From assembly GCA_021604005.1 (NCBI GenBank), contig BQIV01000030.1, forward strand, positions 1 to 62,733: a stretch of DNA of 62,733 nucleotides. Reading direction: 5' to 3'. Positions 1-22,578 of this stretch are shown here, in pieces (the first letter of the stretch is position 1; every line of letters starts with the position of its first letter). A program made the translations under genes and the position numbers. This DNA comes from Nitrospirales bacterium. Its GTDB lineage: Bacteria > Nitrospirota > Nitrospiria > Nitrospirales > UBA8639. The notes beneath the pieces are model-generated. The model saw only the letters and a list, made by a program, of their open reading frames with translations. It was not told the DNA's origin and searched no databases.

Positions 1-48
1 GGATGAGGTTTCGCTAGAGTCCGTTGAGTGAACGCCTCGCATGCTGGG

Positions 49-235
49 CGGGCTTGTTTGAGCGCAGCGAGTTAGCCCACCCCACCAACCAGGGTTCAGC
101 TCATCCGATAAGCCTGGCCTGGGCGTCAATGGTTTTGGGTCCTTTTGCCTTCACAACAAAGGATGCACCCTTCGGGATGCAACAAGCAATACATTTGGCC
201 GCCGGGACGAAACCCGGCAGAGAGTCAAAACTGAG
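49..235 (+). repeat. Dispersed repeat, left copy of terminal inverted pair
   Basis: The first 101 bp (49-149) match the reverse complement of 62633-62733 with about five mismatches. After a variable stretch of about 50 bases, similarity resumes in a conserved hairpin at 201-218 (arms GCCGGG and CCCGGC). The variable part holds its own small stem near 164-180, different in sequence from the one in the right copy. The opposite-strand translation of the arm ends in a short stereotyped tail that I recall at the end of many spurious Nitrospira ORFs. No gene is proposed here. The remaining bases up to the transposase gene hold nothing recognisable. Confidence 0.8.
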
Positions 236-495
236 ACGACAAAGACAATAGGCAATGAACGGTGGAGTGAGCCCTGGGCTCGAGCCACATGGCCTCTGAC
301 GCAATCGCATCCCCAAAGGCTATCGCGGAACCACAGAGCTTCCAGCCGAATCACCCCCACTCATACAGCGCGAGGACATACTTCGTACAGATGGAAGGGC
401 ATGGCACGGCTATACGTCATAGCCCCCTACCAAAACCCCGCAAATCCAAAGGATATTCAAAGACAGTACTGTATTCCACATACTGACGTACCGGC

Positions 496-1188
496 TTATT
501 CCCCTCCCAATCGTGGGCGGCCACGTGGAAGAGGCGACACGCGCCTACCCATTTTTTTTGCTAACTTATTTTTAAACCGTTCATGACCTAACACCCATGC
601 CTTATTGGTCGCTTCTCGAATTTCATCTAAGGTCTCCCCACTCAAATGATGACGAAATAAGGAACGATAGGCTTTTTGCCGCTCCTCAGCCGTCCGCCCC
701 AAGGCTCGATATAAGGCGTGAGGCGTCAAGAGCGTATCGCGCTTGCCGTTCGCATGGCCATGATAACTTGACCACAGGTAGTCTCGTGGATGCACGGCCA
801 TTTCCGCTCTGACGGGATTTAACTCAATATAGCGACAACAGGTTAGAAAATAAGCCTCGCCATCAATCAATGTGGCACGATAACGCCCTTCCCACAATGT
901 CCCAGTCCGCCGATACGTGGCATTCACATGCTGCACATATCGTCTTCCCAGCGATTGCAACGTCTTGGGCAAACTCTCTGGCTGCTCAGGCGTCAGGAGA
1001 AGATGCACGTGATTCGGCATCAACACATAGGCATGAATGGCACATCCATATCGAACGGCCGCCTCTTTTAAAAATTGCAGGTACTTTGGATAGTCGGGGC
1101 TACTGAAAAATATATCTCCCCGGTTATTCCCTCGCTGAATCACATGCAGAGAATAGCCGGAAGCGAAAAAACGAGGCAAGCGTGCCAT
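496..1188 (-). CDS. REP-associated tyrosine (Y1) transposase, RAYT/TnpA_REP family
   Basis: Predicted single-strand DNA transposase of the IS200/IS605-related RAYT group, which acts on short palindromic REP sequences and is usually domesticated. Family marks are visible: an early RGNNR motif, the HUH metal site as NHVHLL at about residues 55-60, a following Tyr-rich helix (RRYVQHVNATYRR) with the candidate nucleophile, LWEGRY, and the YIELNPVRA motif. I start at the ATG at 1188, preceded by GGAGAG. An in-frame extension to 1230 is open but has no better ribosome site. About 230 residues is normal for the family, so the gene looks intact. Upstream (1231-1262) lies a short sequence containing AAAAGTCGAGTCTGACCC that I recall near such genes in related genomes. 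No clear REP hairpin pair was found flanking it. Confidence 0.9.
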   Translation of the reverse strand: MARLPRFFASGYSLHVIQRGNNRGDIFFSSPDYPKYLQFLKEAAVRYGCAIHAYVLMPNHVHLLLTPEQPESLPKTLQSLGRRYVQHVNATYRRTGTLWEGRYRATLIDGEAYFLTCCRYIELNPVRAEMAVHPRDYLWSSYHGHANGKRDTLLTPHALYRALGRTAEERQKAYRSLFRHHLSGETLDEIREATNKAWVLGHERFKNKLAKKMGRRVSPLPRGRPRLGGE

Positions 1189-1325
1189 ACAAACATCTCT
1201 CCGGTTACAGCCATGACGACTGCATAACATAGTGCGTCTTAAAAGTCGAGTCTGACCCTATATATATTTGCACTCACCCTCTAAACCATGTAGTGTATGT
1301 GGGTCACAATTACCACCTTGTCTCA

Positions 1326-2204
1326 ATGGCCAAATCAAGTAAACGGAAAAAAGTAGACAGTCCAGGTCACGCATCGACCCTCGAGTCGAAATCGATTCCT
1401 CCGCTGAATATAGCCCTACTGGTACTCGCAGCGGCCGGAATCCTGTTGACCTCCTACCTCACGTATGTTGCATGGTTCGAAGACCATCCAGCCTTTTGCA
1501 GTGAAGGGTCTGGGTGTGATTTGGTCCAGGCCAGCCGCTGGTCGACGCTGCTCGGTATTCCAATGGCCTTCTATGGCCTGCTCACCTACATGCTCTTGGC
1601 CAATATCATCTGGAACGGCCGCACGAAATCAAGTTACGGACGTCCGGTTATATTTGTGTCCATTTGCGGGTTTGCCATCAGCGCCTACCTCACGATCGTA
1701 TCGGTGGTGGAGATTGAGGCAACCTGCCCCTACTGCCTCGCGTCATTTTCCATTATCACAACGATGATGATCCTGGCGATTGCACAGCGCCCGACTGACT
1801 GGATGACATCCATAAAGGAGGCCACTGTCGTTGCCCTGCTTATCGTTGGCGTGTTGCACTTACACTACAGTGGAGTATTTAGCTTGGCAGCAGGACCGGA
1901 AGACCCGCAACTACAAGCCCTGGCAACTCATCTCGATAAATCAGGAGCGAAGTTTTACGGTGCGTACTGGTGTCCTCGCTGTCAGGAGCAGAAAGAAGTA
2001 TTTGAGGCGTCGGCAACACGACTCCCCTACGTGGAATGCAGCTCTGGCGGACGCGGGAGTGCGTTGACCCCAGCGTGCGCCAAAGAAAAGATTCGAAGCT
2101 ACCCTACCTGGATTATCGGTGATCAACGCTACACCGGACTACAAACCCCGCGCTCACTTGCCGCAGCCTCCGGCTTCGCCTGGAAAGACGACTCGGGCGA
2201 CTAA
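1326..2204 (+). CDS. Vitamin K epoxide reductase (VKOR) fused to thioredoxin-like domain
   Basis: Membrane protein expected to oxidise quinone and drive disulphide bond formation in the periplasm, playing the part of DsbB with its own redox partner attached. The N-terminal half has four to five membrane segments and the VKOR signatures: a loop Cys pair (CSEGSGC), a Ser/Thr-rich turn (WSTLLGIPMAFYG) and the membrane CPYC redox motif. The C-terminal third (from about residue 195) is thioredoxin-like with a WCPRC active site and a YPTWII strand-loop holding the cis-proline. The fusion order is that known from cyanobacterial and other bacterial VKORs. I prefer the ATG at 1326. A GTG at 1293 is also possible, and neither has a convincing ribosome site. 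Confidence 0.93.
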   Translation: MAKSSKRKKVDSPGHASTLESKSIPPLNIALLVLAAAGILLTSYLTYVAWFEDHPAFCSEGSGCDLVQASRWSTLLGIPMAFYGLLTYMLLANIIWNGRTKSSYGRPVIFVSICGFAISAYLTIVSVVEIEATCPYCLASFSIITTMMILAIAQRPTDWMTSIKEATVVALLIVGVLHLHYSGVFSLAAGPEDPQLQALATHLDKSGAKFYGAYWCPRCQEQKEVFEASATRLPYVECSSGGRGSALTPACAKEKIRSYPTWIIGDQRYTGLQTPRSLAAASGFAWKDDSGD

Positions 2205-2242
2205 TAGAGGCATTTCAAACGAACGATTAGGGATAGCGTTGC

Positions 2243-2734
2243 TTAGGACTTGCTGCTCGGCCCGTTAATCCTTTTATCAACCACATAGGGCCGAAGGCTC
2301 CCGACCTTCGCCATCACTTCCTCAAATTCTTTTTCCAGCACCTTAAACTCTTTCAGCGTCGAGGCAATATGCATGGCCACGATATCAAATTCTTGGTCTG
2401 TAATCCCAAGACCTTCATGCGTTGTCTGCAATGGACGATTGATTTTCTTACAAGGTCCTCCGGTGTTAAAACATAAGAGATTTTTGTTCTTCTGCCGTAA
2501 TTGATTTCTCGTATCGGTACCCATCCCAATAAAGTATCGACCGACAATCGGATCATCCCAAATTTTCTCTAAAAACACATCCACGACAGCGGAAATGGCG
2601 TCATAACCGCCAAGCCGCTCATAGAGCGATTTTTCTTGATTGGCAACACTCGTAGCCTGAAACGCTCCGCCCAAGAGACACACCGCACTCAGGCCAACAA
2701 TCATTCCATACCGATGTAAAAAACGTCCGTGCAT
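2243..2734 (-). CDS. Truncated haemoglobin (group I-like) with N-terminal signal sequence
   Basis: Small haem protein likely to bind O2 or NO. The globin part starts near SLYERLGGYDAI and continues with the DPIVGRYF helix. The helix bearing AMHIASTLKEF supplies the probable proximal His. A loop of about 15 residues with two Cys (CFNTGGPCKK) is inserted before the E/F region. Unusually for a globin, the first 30 residues form a hydrophobic signal peptide ending near ATSVANQ, so the protein is probably periplasmic. The start at 2734 is set by AAGGAG seven bases upstream; the ATG two codons earlier is too close to that site. It lies 1.3 kb from nnrS, which fits a role around nitric oxide. Confidence 0.87.
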   Translation of the reverse strand: MHGRFLHRYGMIVGLSAVCLLGGAFQATSVANQEKSLYERLGGYDAISAVVDVFLEKIWDDPIVGRYFIGMGTDTRNQLRQKNKNLLCFNTGGPCKKINRPLQTTHEGLGITDQEFDIVAMHIASTLKEFKVLEKEFEEVMAKVGSLRPYVVDKRINGPSSKS

Positions 2735-3151
2735 ACACATTCTCCTTATGAGTAAATAGTGATCTCCGAATGTCATCGACTCTCGACTCTTGAGGTCAAA
2801 ATATCATGCGTACCATGCCTGAGCAAGCATGAAACCAGAACACCGCGCAGGTGGTATTCCGGCTCGCAATCATGAATATGTGATTCTACTGACAGTCTCG
2901 ATATGGAGGCACGCCACTCCCATCATCGTACCATACAGGTCATCGCAATTTTCGAATCTGTGGACATGCCTCAATTGCCTTACACCACCAAATCTCTGCC
3001 CGCTATCCGTGAATCGATGTAATGACTGAAGGCACCTATTAACCAGGCAATAAAATAGATATCTATACATTCCACTAACCATCAATGAAATGTGTGATTC
3101 TTTGAAGACAAAGGAATCCGAATTAATTGCCGGGTTAATAGATAACCTTAC
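2735..3151. other. Intergenic, no gene seen
   Basis: About 420 bases between the globin start and the miniature repeat. Open frames here overlap the repeat or have no ribosome site, and none resembles a known protein. It must contain the promoter of the minus-strand globin gene near 2740-2800. Confidence 0.5.
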
Positions 3152-3292
3152 GGGCACCTCTAACAACCAGGATTTTTTCGCGAGGGCAAGGAAGCCGCGC
3201 GCGCAAAACCGCAGTGTATAGAGGCATACATGAGGATTTGAGCACGCGACTGACGCCGCCATCGCGGAAAGGGACGGTTTTTAGAGGTGCCC
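3152..3292. repeat. Miniature inverted-repeat (MITE-like) element, complete copy
   Basis: A 141-bp element bounded by near-perfect 17-bp terminal inverted repeats (GGGCACCTCTAACAACC at the left; the right end read inward is GGGCACCTCTAAAAACC). It encodes nothing. Its right end abuts the stop codon of the minus-strand permease gene at 3293. A partial copy lies at 57713-57797, also just behind a stop codon, and a lone end-like motif lies at 25976-25991. I recall this sequence as abundant in Nitrospira, where it generates short spurious ORFs. Confidence 0.85.
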
Positions 3293-4000
3293 TTATGCTG
3301 TTCGTACCTTTGCGAACGTTAGGTACAACACCGCAGAAATCCCTGAAGACCCGAAAATCATGCACATAACCATGATTTGATATTTCGTGGCCACAAGCGG
3401 AGAGACACCGGAGAGGATTTGCCCGGTCATCATCCCCGGCAACGACACCAGGCCAACAGCCAATAACGAATTGATGACAGGAATCAGCGAAGAATGCAAG
3501 GCCGAATTTCTTGCCTCGATGTACGAACAGGCCTTCTCACATTCGGCTTCAAACCGTTCTGCAGCCAGGCTCACAGTATTCATGCTACTGGCAAAAATCA
3601 TCCCCGCAAGCGGTACGACGTAACGAGGGAAAAACCAGGGCTGCACCTCCAAGACCACCTGACTCACCAGTACAAGGGTCGAGACTCCGCCAATGGCAAT
3701 GGCACCCAGGGCATTTCGATACAAATGCGGCTGCTTCTTTTTGAGAGGACGCAAAGCTATCCAGCTGGCAGTACCCAACATCACTATCATCACGCACACA
3801 ATGATGCCGGCATGTTCGGCTTCGAAAATATATGTCAACACATAGCCAATCAGCAGCAATTGAATGAGCATTCGTGTCAAGGCATACACTGCCGTTCGTC
3901 CATCGACCGTCCATCGATAGAGGATAACAATCACAATACACGCCGGCACAAATGCCCACAGTAACCCAGAAAATGAAACAGCTTGAATGGAAGTATTCAT
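3293..4000 (-). CDS. FetB-like ABC transporter permease (UPF0014 family)
   Basis: Integral membrane protein of about 235 residues with seven hydrophobic segments. It matches the FetB/YbbM permease family, whose E. coli member works with the ATPase FetA in iron export under oxidative stress. Recognisable stretches are ALTRMLIQLLLIGYVL, the IALRPLKKK loop, VPLAGMIFASSMNTVSLA, and SLIPVINSLLAVGLVSLPGM near the C-terminus. The start at 4000 uses the ATG preceded by AAAGG. No FetA-like ATPase is next to it, so it either borrows one encoded elsewhere or works alone. It is transcribed divergently from nnrS, with 72 bases between the two starts. Substrate is not shown by the sequence. Confidence 0.85.
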   Translation of the reverse strand: MNTSIQAVSFSGLLWAFVPACIVIVILYRWTVDGRTAVYALTRMLIQLLLIGYVLTYIFEAEHAGIIVCVMIVMLGTASWIALRPLKKKQPHLYRNALGAIAIGGVSTLVLVSQVVLEVQPWFFPRYVVPLAGMIFASSMNTVSLAAERFEAECEKACSYIEARNSALHSSLIPVINSLLAVGLVSLPGMMTGQILSGVSPLVATKYQIMVMCMIFGSSGISAVLYLTFAKVRTA

Positions 4001-20043: not shown

Positions 20044-20517
20044 TCACTTGAAAGATATCCGAAGTGACTCATCAGCAAATGGGCGTGTAAATCCTTGAGC
20101 CACCACAACCGTACATTCCCGGCTGTACGTCAAAATGGACCATTTATGCACATCCACCTTGACGTCATATAATCCTGTCAGATCTGGATGCTGCTCTTTG
20201 ATATGTAACAGTGCTTTCTTGTAACTTCCATCCCCTGTCGCTCCTGAAACACTCAGGCGGTCTGTCGCGGAAAAGATGATGGGAATGGAGAGCCCATGCT
20301 GGCAACTATCACCCATAACTTCCCCCACTGAGACCGCATCGTCAGGCCTCTCATAGGACGTCAATGTTTGAAAGGACAGCGGTGCCTCAGAGTCATAATA
20401 CAACACGAATCCTCCGACAAAAATCAGGCCAGGGCGAGCCTCATACGCCGATCGTTGCAACGGGGAACATCCAGAGGCAAGCACACACAGAACCATCAGC
20501 ATGAAAACCATTTTCAT
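20044..20517 (-). CDS. TRL-like lipoprotein (second of pair)
   Basis: Exported lipoprotein of 157 residues. The lipobox LASGC lies about 15 residues from the chosen start. The body resembles the TRL-like domain of its neighbour: GEVMGDSCQHGLSIPI, then KKALLHIKEQHPDLTGLYDV and KVDVHKWSILTYSRECTVV. The start ATG at 20517 overlaps the stop of the upstream gene as ATGA, so the two are translationally coupled. Probably outer-membrane associated; function unknown. Confidence 0.8.
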   Translation of the reverse strand: MKMVFMLMVLCVLASGCSPLQRSAYEARPGLIFVGGFVLYYDSEAPLSFQTLTSYERPDDAVSVGEVMGDSCQHGLSIPIIFSATDRLSVSGATGDGSYKKALLHIKEQHPDLTGLYDVKVDVHKWSILTYSRECTVVVAQGFTRPFADESLRISFK

Positions 20518-20870
20518 ACGGAACCCACCTTGCCCGTCACGACTGTACATGTTTGAGTATATAAGCCAAAGACATAGGCCGTGGCTTTAACATCGACATG
20601 CACATCATAAAGAATGGACCCAGTGGGTTCGTTTGCCAATGCATTCTTGATAGCTCCCACATATCCGCCATTACCCCAGGCCACTAAAAATAACACGGCT
20701 CGATTACAACTTTCCCCAATCACCACGTTATCTGTGGCTTTGGCTTTTACATCGATCGGACTTGCCGAACGATAGGCTCTCGGCACCTGAATATCGGTGT
20801 ATAAACACCCGCTCAGCAACATCAATCCAACCAAGATGACCAGCATTGTCGTGAATTGTCGGTTCAGCAT
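20514..20870 (-). CDS. TRL-like lipoprotein (first of pair)
   Basis: Lipoprotein of 118 residues with a signal sequence ending in the lipobox LLSGC. It matches the TRL-like family (named from a gene near tRNA-Leu in Helicobacter/Campylobacter): VVIGESCNRAVLFLVAWGNG, a central GYVGAIKNAL, then DVHVDVKATAYVFGLYTQTC. Function unknown. The pair probably arose by duplication and both are probably anchored in the same membrane. Confidence 0.82.
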   Translation of the reverse strand: MLNRQFTTMLVILVGLMLLSGCLYTDIQVPRAYRSASPIDVKAKATDNVVIGESCNRAVLFLVAWGNGGYVGAIKNALANEPTGSILYDVHVDVKATAYVFGLYTQTCTVVTGKVGSV

Positions 20871-21237
20871 TCTCTTTCGCCTCCAAAATAAAAGAACGAT
20901 TCACAATCTAGACGATACCCTATATCCACGAATGAGTTCCAGGCACTCTTCAGCACAGCGCCACAACAATATGCGTAGCTTAATTGAGAAACGAGATTGA
21001 AGATAGACCCATTTCCGAAATCCTTCATCATGTATGCTGTCAGGTTATTGAGCAGAAACAAAGAGAGAATGGCGTTACATTATCGGCACTTGACTCCACA
21101 CACGTCTCATGTCACATTTGTCATTCCTTTTTGCAACGGGAAGGCGGCATGCCACGTTGCAAGCTGTTCGAGACATACAATCACTCACCTTGGAGAAAAC
21201 CCTGATCACACACAGGTACTCACAACTACTGACGCAC

Positions 21238-22578
21238 ATGACGAACAAGACTCAGCAATACTTGAACAAACGCACAGTGAATCGGGTAACCACCCAGTGG
21301 GCTCAACGCCTGGCGTTGAGCCTTGGCATGTGCTTGCTCATTGGAGGTCTCCTGCCTCACACGGGCACAAGTCAAACAACCAACACCAAAGGACAGGCTG
21401 AATCTGCAACACAGCCTCAACATCTTCATGTCACTCCTGAACCATCGTCCGCTCCTGAGCCTCATCCTCGTGGAACCTGTTACGAGAATATTCCCTGTTA
21501 CAAAAAGACATTAGAAACCGTCTTGAAAAAACTAGGAACAGAACAAGCCCTTCAAGTGATCGAAGAAATCGTCAAGAAGGATCACACGGCGTTACGCGAA
21601 GCCCATAATCTGACACATTATGTTGGGCGCATGTCCTACCATCACCTCAAGGACGTCACGGCTGTCATGTCGCAATGCACGCCTGCGCATCAATCAGGAT
21701 GTTATCACGGTGCGCTGGAAGCCTACCTCACGAGTAAACCGAAGATTCAACCAGATGATGTGGTCGCCATCTGTAACCCCAAGCTTGAAAAAGAAAAAGG
21801 AAGATTCGCGTATTTCAATTGTTTTCATGGATTAGGCCACGGCCTGACCATGCATCTCAATCATGACATCAAACAGGCATTAGCTCTCTGTGACACGTTA
21901 CACACAGAATGGGATCAACAGTCTTGTTATGGCGGAGTCTTCATGGAAGGTGTGGTCGCCGGCATCAACGGCTCGCAACAACACAGCGGGCATCATGGAA
22001 CGCACAGTCGTCATCACCAGGATATCAAACTTATCGAACCAACGAATCCCCTGTATCCATGCTCGGACCTTGATGAAAAATATTTGAGCGAATGTTATAT
22101 GATGCAAACATCGATTATTTTGCACTTAACGCAATATGACTTTGCCAAGGCCTTTCGCGAGTGCGATAAAGCCCCGGAGACCATGAGGCCGACTTGTTAC
22201 CAAAGTATGGGAAGAGACATATCTGGCCACACCTTACGTAACATTGAACAGTCGACCCACCTCTGTCAATTGGGAACAGCCACCCACCAAAACCGTTGTT
22301 TTATAGGTGTTGTGAAAAACTTTCTCAACGTGTCTGGTCGGGCGTCGGACAATGCTTTTGAATTTTGTCGACAGATACCCGAACAACATAAACGCGATTG
22401 TCATTATGCAATCGGAGAAGAACTGCTCACCCTTTACGCCGAACCGCAGCAACGCACTCAAGCCTGTGCTCGTTCGGAAACCGCATATACTCAAGATTGT
22501 CGTCAGGGAGCTCGCCTGGCTCTCGATCAATCGTCACTATCGATTATAGCGAATCCAAATAAGTTCCAGTTGAACTGA
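21238..22578 (+). CDS. Exported Cys-pair tandem-repeat protein, function unknown
   Basis: About 446 residues with a signal-like segment (RLALSLGMCLLIGGLLPHTG). From about 21676 to the end there are seven degenerate repeats of about 40 residues. Each has a Cys, a spacer and a second Cys followed by an aromatic or polar residue and often x-G: CTPAHQSGCYHG, then a longer-spaced one ending NCFHGLGHGL, CDTLHTEWDQQSCYGG, CDKAPETMRPTCYQS, CQLGTATHQNRCFIG, CRQIPEQHKRDCHYA and CARSETAYTQDCRQG. Four of the seven have exactly ten residues between the Cys. This looks like a helical solenoid pinned by disulphides, fitting a periplasmic location. A His-rich insert (HSGHHGTHSRHH) could bind metal. The start is uncertain; an ATG at 21109 is also open. 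Confidence 0.7.
   Translation: MTNKTQQYLNKRTVNRVTTQWAQRLALSLGMCLLIGGLLPHTGTSQTTNTKGQAESATQPQHLHVTPEPSSAPEPHPRGTCYENIPCYKKTLETVLKKLGTEQALQVIEEIVKKDHTALREAHNLTHYVGRMSYHHLKDVTAVMSQCTPAHQSGCYHGALEAYLTSKPKIQPDDVVAICNPKLEKEKGRFAYFNCFHGLGHGLTMHLNHDIKQALALCDTLHTEWDQQSCYGGVFMEGVVAGINGSQQHSGHHGTHSRHHQDIKLIEPTNPLYPCSDLDEKYLSECYMMQTSIILHLTQYDFAKAFRECDKAPETMRPTCYQSMGRDISGHTLRNIEQSTHLCQLGTATHQNRCFIGVVKNFLNVSGRASDNAFEFCRQIPEQHKRDCHYAIGEELLTLYAEPQQRTQACARSETAYTQDCRQGARLALDQSSLSIIANPNKFQLN

Follow-up and report, generated by a model that had tools for sequence, protein, structure and literature searches.

Which role does an exported protein play whose cysteines recur in pairs at regular distances, as encoded by a gene at positions 21238–22578 (forward strand) of the 62,733-nucleotide stretch of Nitrospirales DNA analysed here as a whole (the window)? 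The gene specifies 446 residues from the ATG at 21238, in a reading frame open from 21109 (21109–22578). This ATG, corresponding to M44 of the frame, is judged from the sequence the most likely start because the similarity of the relatives begins there and because the N-terminus is then short and contains a single hydrophobic segment; all residue numbers are counted from it. The segment (residues 22–46; 21301–21375) presumably serves export, which is strongly supported at the sequence level, as 140 of the 145 relatives with upstream sequence carry a hydrophobic stretch at the N-terminus, and a stricter threshold retains it in 83% of the relatives vs 16% of control frames. It is followed by the conserved family domain, predicted as an all-helical solenoid (21487–22518; HMM match in its own genome at E = 1.5e-127; AlphaFold2 pLDDT 91.8). 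The neighbours within the genus (lipoproteins, a hydrolase and a DNA ligase) are syntenic and not informative. Two small lipoprotein-like genes lie next to the solenoid gene on the minus strand (20514–20870 and 20044–20550), the former matching the TRL-like family PF13146 (7.4e-10).

A sequence-only reading had described seven tandem Cys-pair repeats of about 40 residues, four of them with a spacer of exactly ten. The frame and its paired cysteines are indeed present, but the pairs number eight between C147 and C421 (21676–22502), with spacers of 7, 15, 11, 10, 10, 10, 10 and 10 residues; the exact ten-residue spacing thereby holds for five of eight pairs, compared to 0.73 expected when the mature sequence is shuffled (p ~3e-4). 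The repeat length had to be revised: the first Cys recurs in the core repeats with periods of 34, 34, 34 and 33 residues, the first units are longer and an insert separates units 4 and 5. The supposed rule that an aromatic residue and a glycine usually follow the second Cys describes most pairs, Tyr or Phe being found in six of eight and Gly at position +3 in five of eight.

AlphaFold2 calculations on an alignment of 75 sequences (A2) yielded an all-helical solenoid with a pLDDT of 91.8 and a pTM of 0.88, in line with the fold previously guessed from the periodicity; the half bearing the conserved histidines described below, modelled alone, likewise reached a pLDDT of 91.8. In the predicted secondary structure each core repeat comprises two helices connected by a loop of 4–5 residues: helix A is short (about 8 residues) and terminates at the first Cys, and helix B is long (about 18 residues) and bears the second Cys within its second turn. 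On the basis of this model the window protein appears to be an α-solenoid, though not demonstrably a known one.

The pairing of the cysteines was analysed by their joint loss in 96 sequences with less than 80% identity to each other. C147 and C155 (21676–21702; spacer of seven) are both present in 47 sequences and both absent in 49, i.e. concordant in 96/96 (phi 1.00), with seven changes on the tree that are the same in both columns. C122 and C151 occur together in 57 sequences and are jointly missing in 36 (concordant in 93/93), and C309 and C320 (22162–22197; spacer of ten) are co-lost with a phi of 0.81. No other combination of Cys columns in the 96-sequence set reached p<1e-3. The pair 122–151 occurs alone in 48 sequences, the pair 147–155 alone in 38, including the window protein, and both in nine, leaving one odd row. 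An independent-pairs sign test could be based on just two pairs on supported branches, both in the same direction, and is underpowered; in a close relative (L004/L015), represented in the reduced set by the row of the window protein, C147 alone is lost. Disulphide pairing is thus well supported for three pairs by sequence covariation. The other pairs, namely 179–195 (21772–21822; spacer of 15), 218–230 (21889–21927; spacer of 11) and 275–286 (22060–22095), each with both Cys present in 96/96 sequences, 343–354 (22264–22299; 93/95 each), 377–388 (22366–22401; 91/91 each) and 410–421 (22465–22500; 57/57 and 54/54 in the sequences possessing the C-terminal repeat), the last four with spacers of ten, are invariant and therefore silent on pairing by co-loss; for them disulphides are suggested by analogy and by their predicted placement on the helices. 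Helix placement and partner co-loss over the 96 relatives together argue for one disulphide per repeat, as the sequence-only reading had proposed.

Comparable architectures are known. The Helicobacter cysteine-rich, Sel1-like proteins HcpB and HcpC are likewise exported α-solenoids in which disulphides tie helical repeats (PMC3851747), and co-loss together with the modelled helix placement suggests the same manner of tying here, although the repeats comprise 33–34 residues in the window family vs 36–38 in Sel1. Pfam and NCBIfam scans of the window protein and ten relatives gave no family match, so that membership in the Sel1 (PF08238) and TPR families was rejected (nothing at E<=1) and a match to such a family with reduced cysteines did not turn up. 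Against the PDB, phmmer provided one hit at E = 2.4 and a profile search none at E<=10. Foldseek and VIA searches of the PDB with the whole model and with its His-bearing half, which also served as comparison with the SLR superhelix, returned generic helical solenoids, none of them significant; the matches listed included no structure of Hcp or of COA7 (see below). The best look-alikes are TPR, HEAT and PPR solenoids; HEAT/TPR proteins such as LGN, importins and proteasome subunits share the general helical-repeat arrangement but remain within the chance range for helical repeats (Foldseek E>0.03, TM ~0.2; VIA Z<8). The earlier impression that no described repeat family obeys this pattern is thus borne out by sequence searches of Pfam, NCBIfam and the PDB, and a literature search retrieved no published description of the family, which is not proof of absence.

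These structural relations could be taken to indicate a disulphide-stapled, Sel1/TPR-like protein-binding scaffold, whose helical-hairpin repeats of ~34 residues are fixed as in the Hcp proteins (PMC3851747) and whose histidines would be structural or zinc-binding. We regard this explanation as quite improbable, given the missing Pfam TPR and Sel1 matches and the poor Foldseek values quoted above; moreover, His, Cys and Gly are the most conserved residues, and the copper-domain fusions of the relatives (see below) would be left unexplained.

The most conserved histidines are located in the long helices of the first three repeats. H123 and H127, separated by three residues (21604–21618), are invariant in repeat 1 (145/145 and 148/148 relatives, counted here and below over those with a residue at the respective column), H157 of a C-Y-H-G motif (21706–21708) in repeat 2 (148/148) and H197 and H201 of an HGxGH motif (21826–21840) in repeat 3 (148/148). 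All five are also invariant in 56 non-redundant members which had not been picked through peptide patterns. The histidines of helices B2 and B3 follow the helix-B Cys by two or six residues, and those of helix B1 by one and five residues in members with C122. The long helix of repeat 4 contributes the near-invariant M236 and E237 of a GVFME motif (21943–21948; 88/94 and 83/94) as candidate further ligands. To our knowledge, neither an invariant five-His set nor copper-domain fusions are known for Hcp. The sequence-only reading had placed a possible metal site elsewhere, in a His-rich insert. This insert exists as the loop HSGHHGTHSRHH between repeats 4 and 5 (21982–22017), but is variable in length and sequence; loops of at least 30 residues contain 11.7% His vs 3.6% elsewhere in the domain, and in Gemmatimonadota the loop is rich in His and Met, e.g. 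GHDHGGMDHGAMGHGGMDHD in L083. The presumed metal site is accordingly better assigned to the five invariant histidines, which had escaped notice, and this relocation is supported by fusions of relatives to copper-handling and electron-transfer domains. The family hence displays conserved potential ligands as expected for a copper-handling protein, with five invariant His and a near-invariant Met236.

The fusions involve cupredoxins in 13 genes (unique frames), CopC plus a membrane segment in four and cytochrome c in one; on the tree, the fusion state changed at least ten times, its deep branches being weak. In the Actinomycetota loci L160–L163 a CopC domain (PF04234; E = 4.6e-15 in L161 and 1e-13 in L163), which by eye retains the N-terminal His and the DxH motif, is followed by a hydrophobic CopD-like segment without a match to Pfam CopD and then by the family domain. 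The latter thereby occupies the place of YtkA in YcnJ, a copper importer composed of CopC, CopD and YtkA (PMC12362106). The analogy is limited in that the window family is an all-helical solenoid in the model, the window copy stands alone and the membrane segment lacks a Pfam CopD match. Cupredoxin_1 domains (PF13473; up to 9.8e-9) are fused in Patescibacteria and Actinomycetota, in L115 at the C-terminus. By eye, they seemingly lack the usual type-1 Cys ligand and show HDH instead, which counts against a copper role and leaves their own metal putative. The fused cytochrome c domain (L159; PF13442, 6.6e-9) has an intact CxxCH motif. Stand-alone cupredoxin genes lie beside the family domain in L078, L112 and L127, the last also having a CopC gene, and a ZIP-family transporter gene adjoins the family gene in L088.

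Linkage to copper domains (CopC, Cupredoxin_1) is thus evident for the family, but outside the lineage of the window. No copper gene is a constant neighbour in Nitrospirales, Nitrospira, Binatota or Gemmatimonadota, which also argues against copper. The family gene is accompanied by genes for glutamyl/glutaminyl-tRNA synthetase and DUF6941 in Nitrospira, for methylmalonyl-CoA mutase, MeaB and MoaE in Binatia and for PriA and PRAI in Gemmatimonadota, i.e. by housekeeping genes, and no partner gene is shared across the three neighbourhoods. The fusions found elsewhere suggest that copper may also be transferred in the window's own lineage.

The two different types of fused electron carriers, together with the invariant His and Gly and the near-invariant Met around the site, would also suit a metal-dependent redox enzyme in which copper or iron at the His site performs catalysis and the fused carrier, cupredoxin or cytochrome c, is the electron partner. 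This alternative appears rather unlikely to us, as a CopC domain fused together with a CopD-like segment typically points to copper uptake rather than to catalysis, and a conserved metabolic gene was not found among the neighbours. Redox or heme roles, at the expense of copper, are also compatible with the cytochrome c fusion and with an arrangement in L136 (2463–5061), where a DsbA-family gene and a CcdA/DsbD-like membrane gene lie directly upstream of the family gene, with an overlap of 4 bp; the two might possibly constitute a dedicated disulphide supply.

In this context COA7, the mitochondrial cytochrome c oxidase assembly factor, has to be considered. This heme-binding protein, whose helix-turn-helix repeats are tethered by disulphides, resides in an oxidising compartment and has the copper chaperones SCO1/SCO2 as targets (PMC9163361, PMC12114033). 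By analogy, heme might be bound by the His pairs of the window family, while its Cys pairs might target the disulphides of copper chaperones; the DsbA-family gene of L136 and the cytochrome c fusion of L159 would fit this picture. We nevertheless consider such an assembly factor improbable. Kinship to COA7 was rejected on the basis of a profile comparison (hhalign probability 0.1%, 14 columns), and the COA7 sequence printed in PMC12114033 is devoid of the HGxGH motif. Furthermore, most cysteines are invariant or lost pairwise, as fits structural rather than catalytic disulphides. The likeness to Hcp and COA7 is thus one of architecture, while sequence tests do not relate the family to Sel1, TPR or COA7.

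Relatives were found at 176 loci of the genome collection, of which 80 were kept, and are spread over Nitrospirota, Binatota, Gemmatimonadota, Actinomycetota and Patescibacteria; the viral collection contained none. The closest named ones belong to the Nitrospirales MAGs NPIRA01, NPIRA04 and OFTM51 (85, 77 and 71% identity). The family is present in 12 of the 40 nearest genomes, in 20/198 Nitrospirota genomes and, among genomes sampled around a centre, in 41/150 for Gemmatimonadota, 14/287 for Saccharibacteria, 11/246 for Actinomycetota (two of the 11 marginal) and 3/194 for Woesearchaeota (two of the three partial), as well as in 1/241 sampled around the genome of L081. The taxon labels of some MAG contigs (L020, L070, L081) may be binning errors. 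Patescibacteria possess paralogue arrays, some having 7–8 copies in a genome of 1 Mb. In L125 (1–13192; G233:C49), L134 (G411:C24) and L135 (G414:C1) divergent paralogues, strikingly numerous for Patescibacteria-type genomes of ~1 Mb, are mixed with stand-alone cupredoxin-like genes, and the array of L125 starts with a large protein containing a long (YYYGQA/YYYAQA)n repeat (7–3462). A protein from an archaeal phylum (L140:1423–3273, minus strand) combines an N-terminal multi-pass membrane part with C-terminal Cys-pair repeats and has no His half, so that the Cys-pair repeat may also occur independently of the metal site. Two equally scoring copies near both ends of one chromosome record (G226:C1:93996–95015 and C1:5147959–5148978) probably reflect a terminal duplication left unresolved in the assembly.

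The export segment, the helices stapled by disulphides, the five unchanging histidines and the recurrent association with domains for copper handling and electron transfer lead us to favour, with some reserve, an extracytoplasmic metal module, i.e. an exported, disulphide-pinned α-solenoid carrying a transition-metal site, the presumed metal being most probably copper. The invariant histidines and the fused domains of the relatives indicate that the family is probably an undescribed metal-binding one, with copper as the most likely metal. We propose the following scenario: neighbouring B helices would bring the five histidines, with Met236 and/or Glu237, onto one face, where one or two copper ions might be coordinated. 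Stiffened by its disulphides, the extracytoplasmic solenoid would hold the metal site in a preformed state, while the variable His-rich loop may gather metal. The module could then pass copper or electrons to or from the fused or accompanying domain, be it CopC plus membrane segment, cupredoxin or cytochrome c, and the stand-alone Nitrospirales copy of the window would have separate copper proteins of the periplasm as partners. More tentatively, an undescribed, phylum-spanning copper family is a reasonable possibility, in which a multi-His centre on the inner helices of the stapled solenoid relays copper or electrons between CopC/CopD-type importers, cupredoxins and cytochromes.

The joint loss of paired cysteines provides a natural record of disulphide pairing in a family which is unnamed in Pfam and NCBIfam and yet occurs in nitrite-oxidising Nitrospira, Gemmatimonadota, Binatota, Actinomycetota and the reduced-genome Patescibacteria. 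If copper is bound, an α-solenoid would be added to the extracytoplasmic copper inventory, a repeated gene family of Patescibacteria would gain a function and a test protein would become available for metal handling in nitrifiers.
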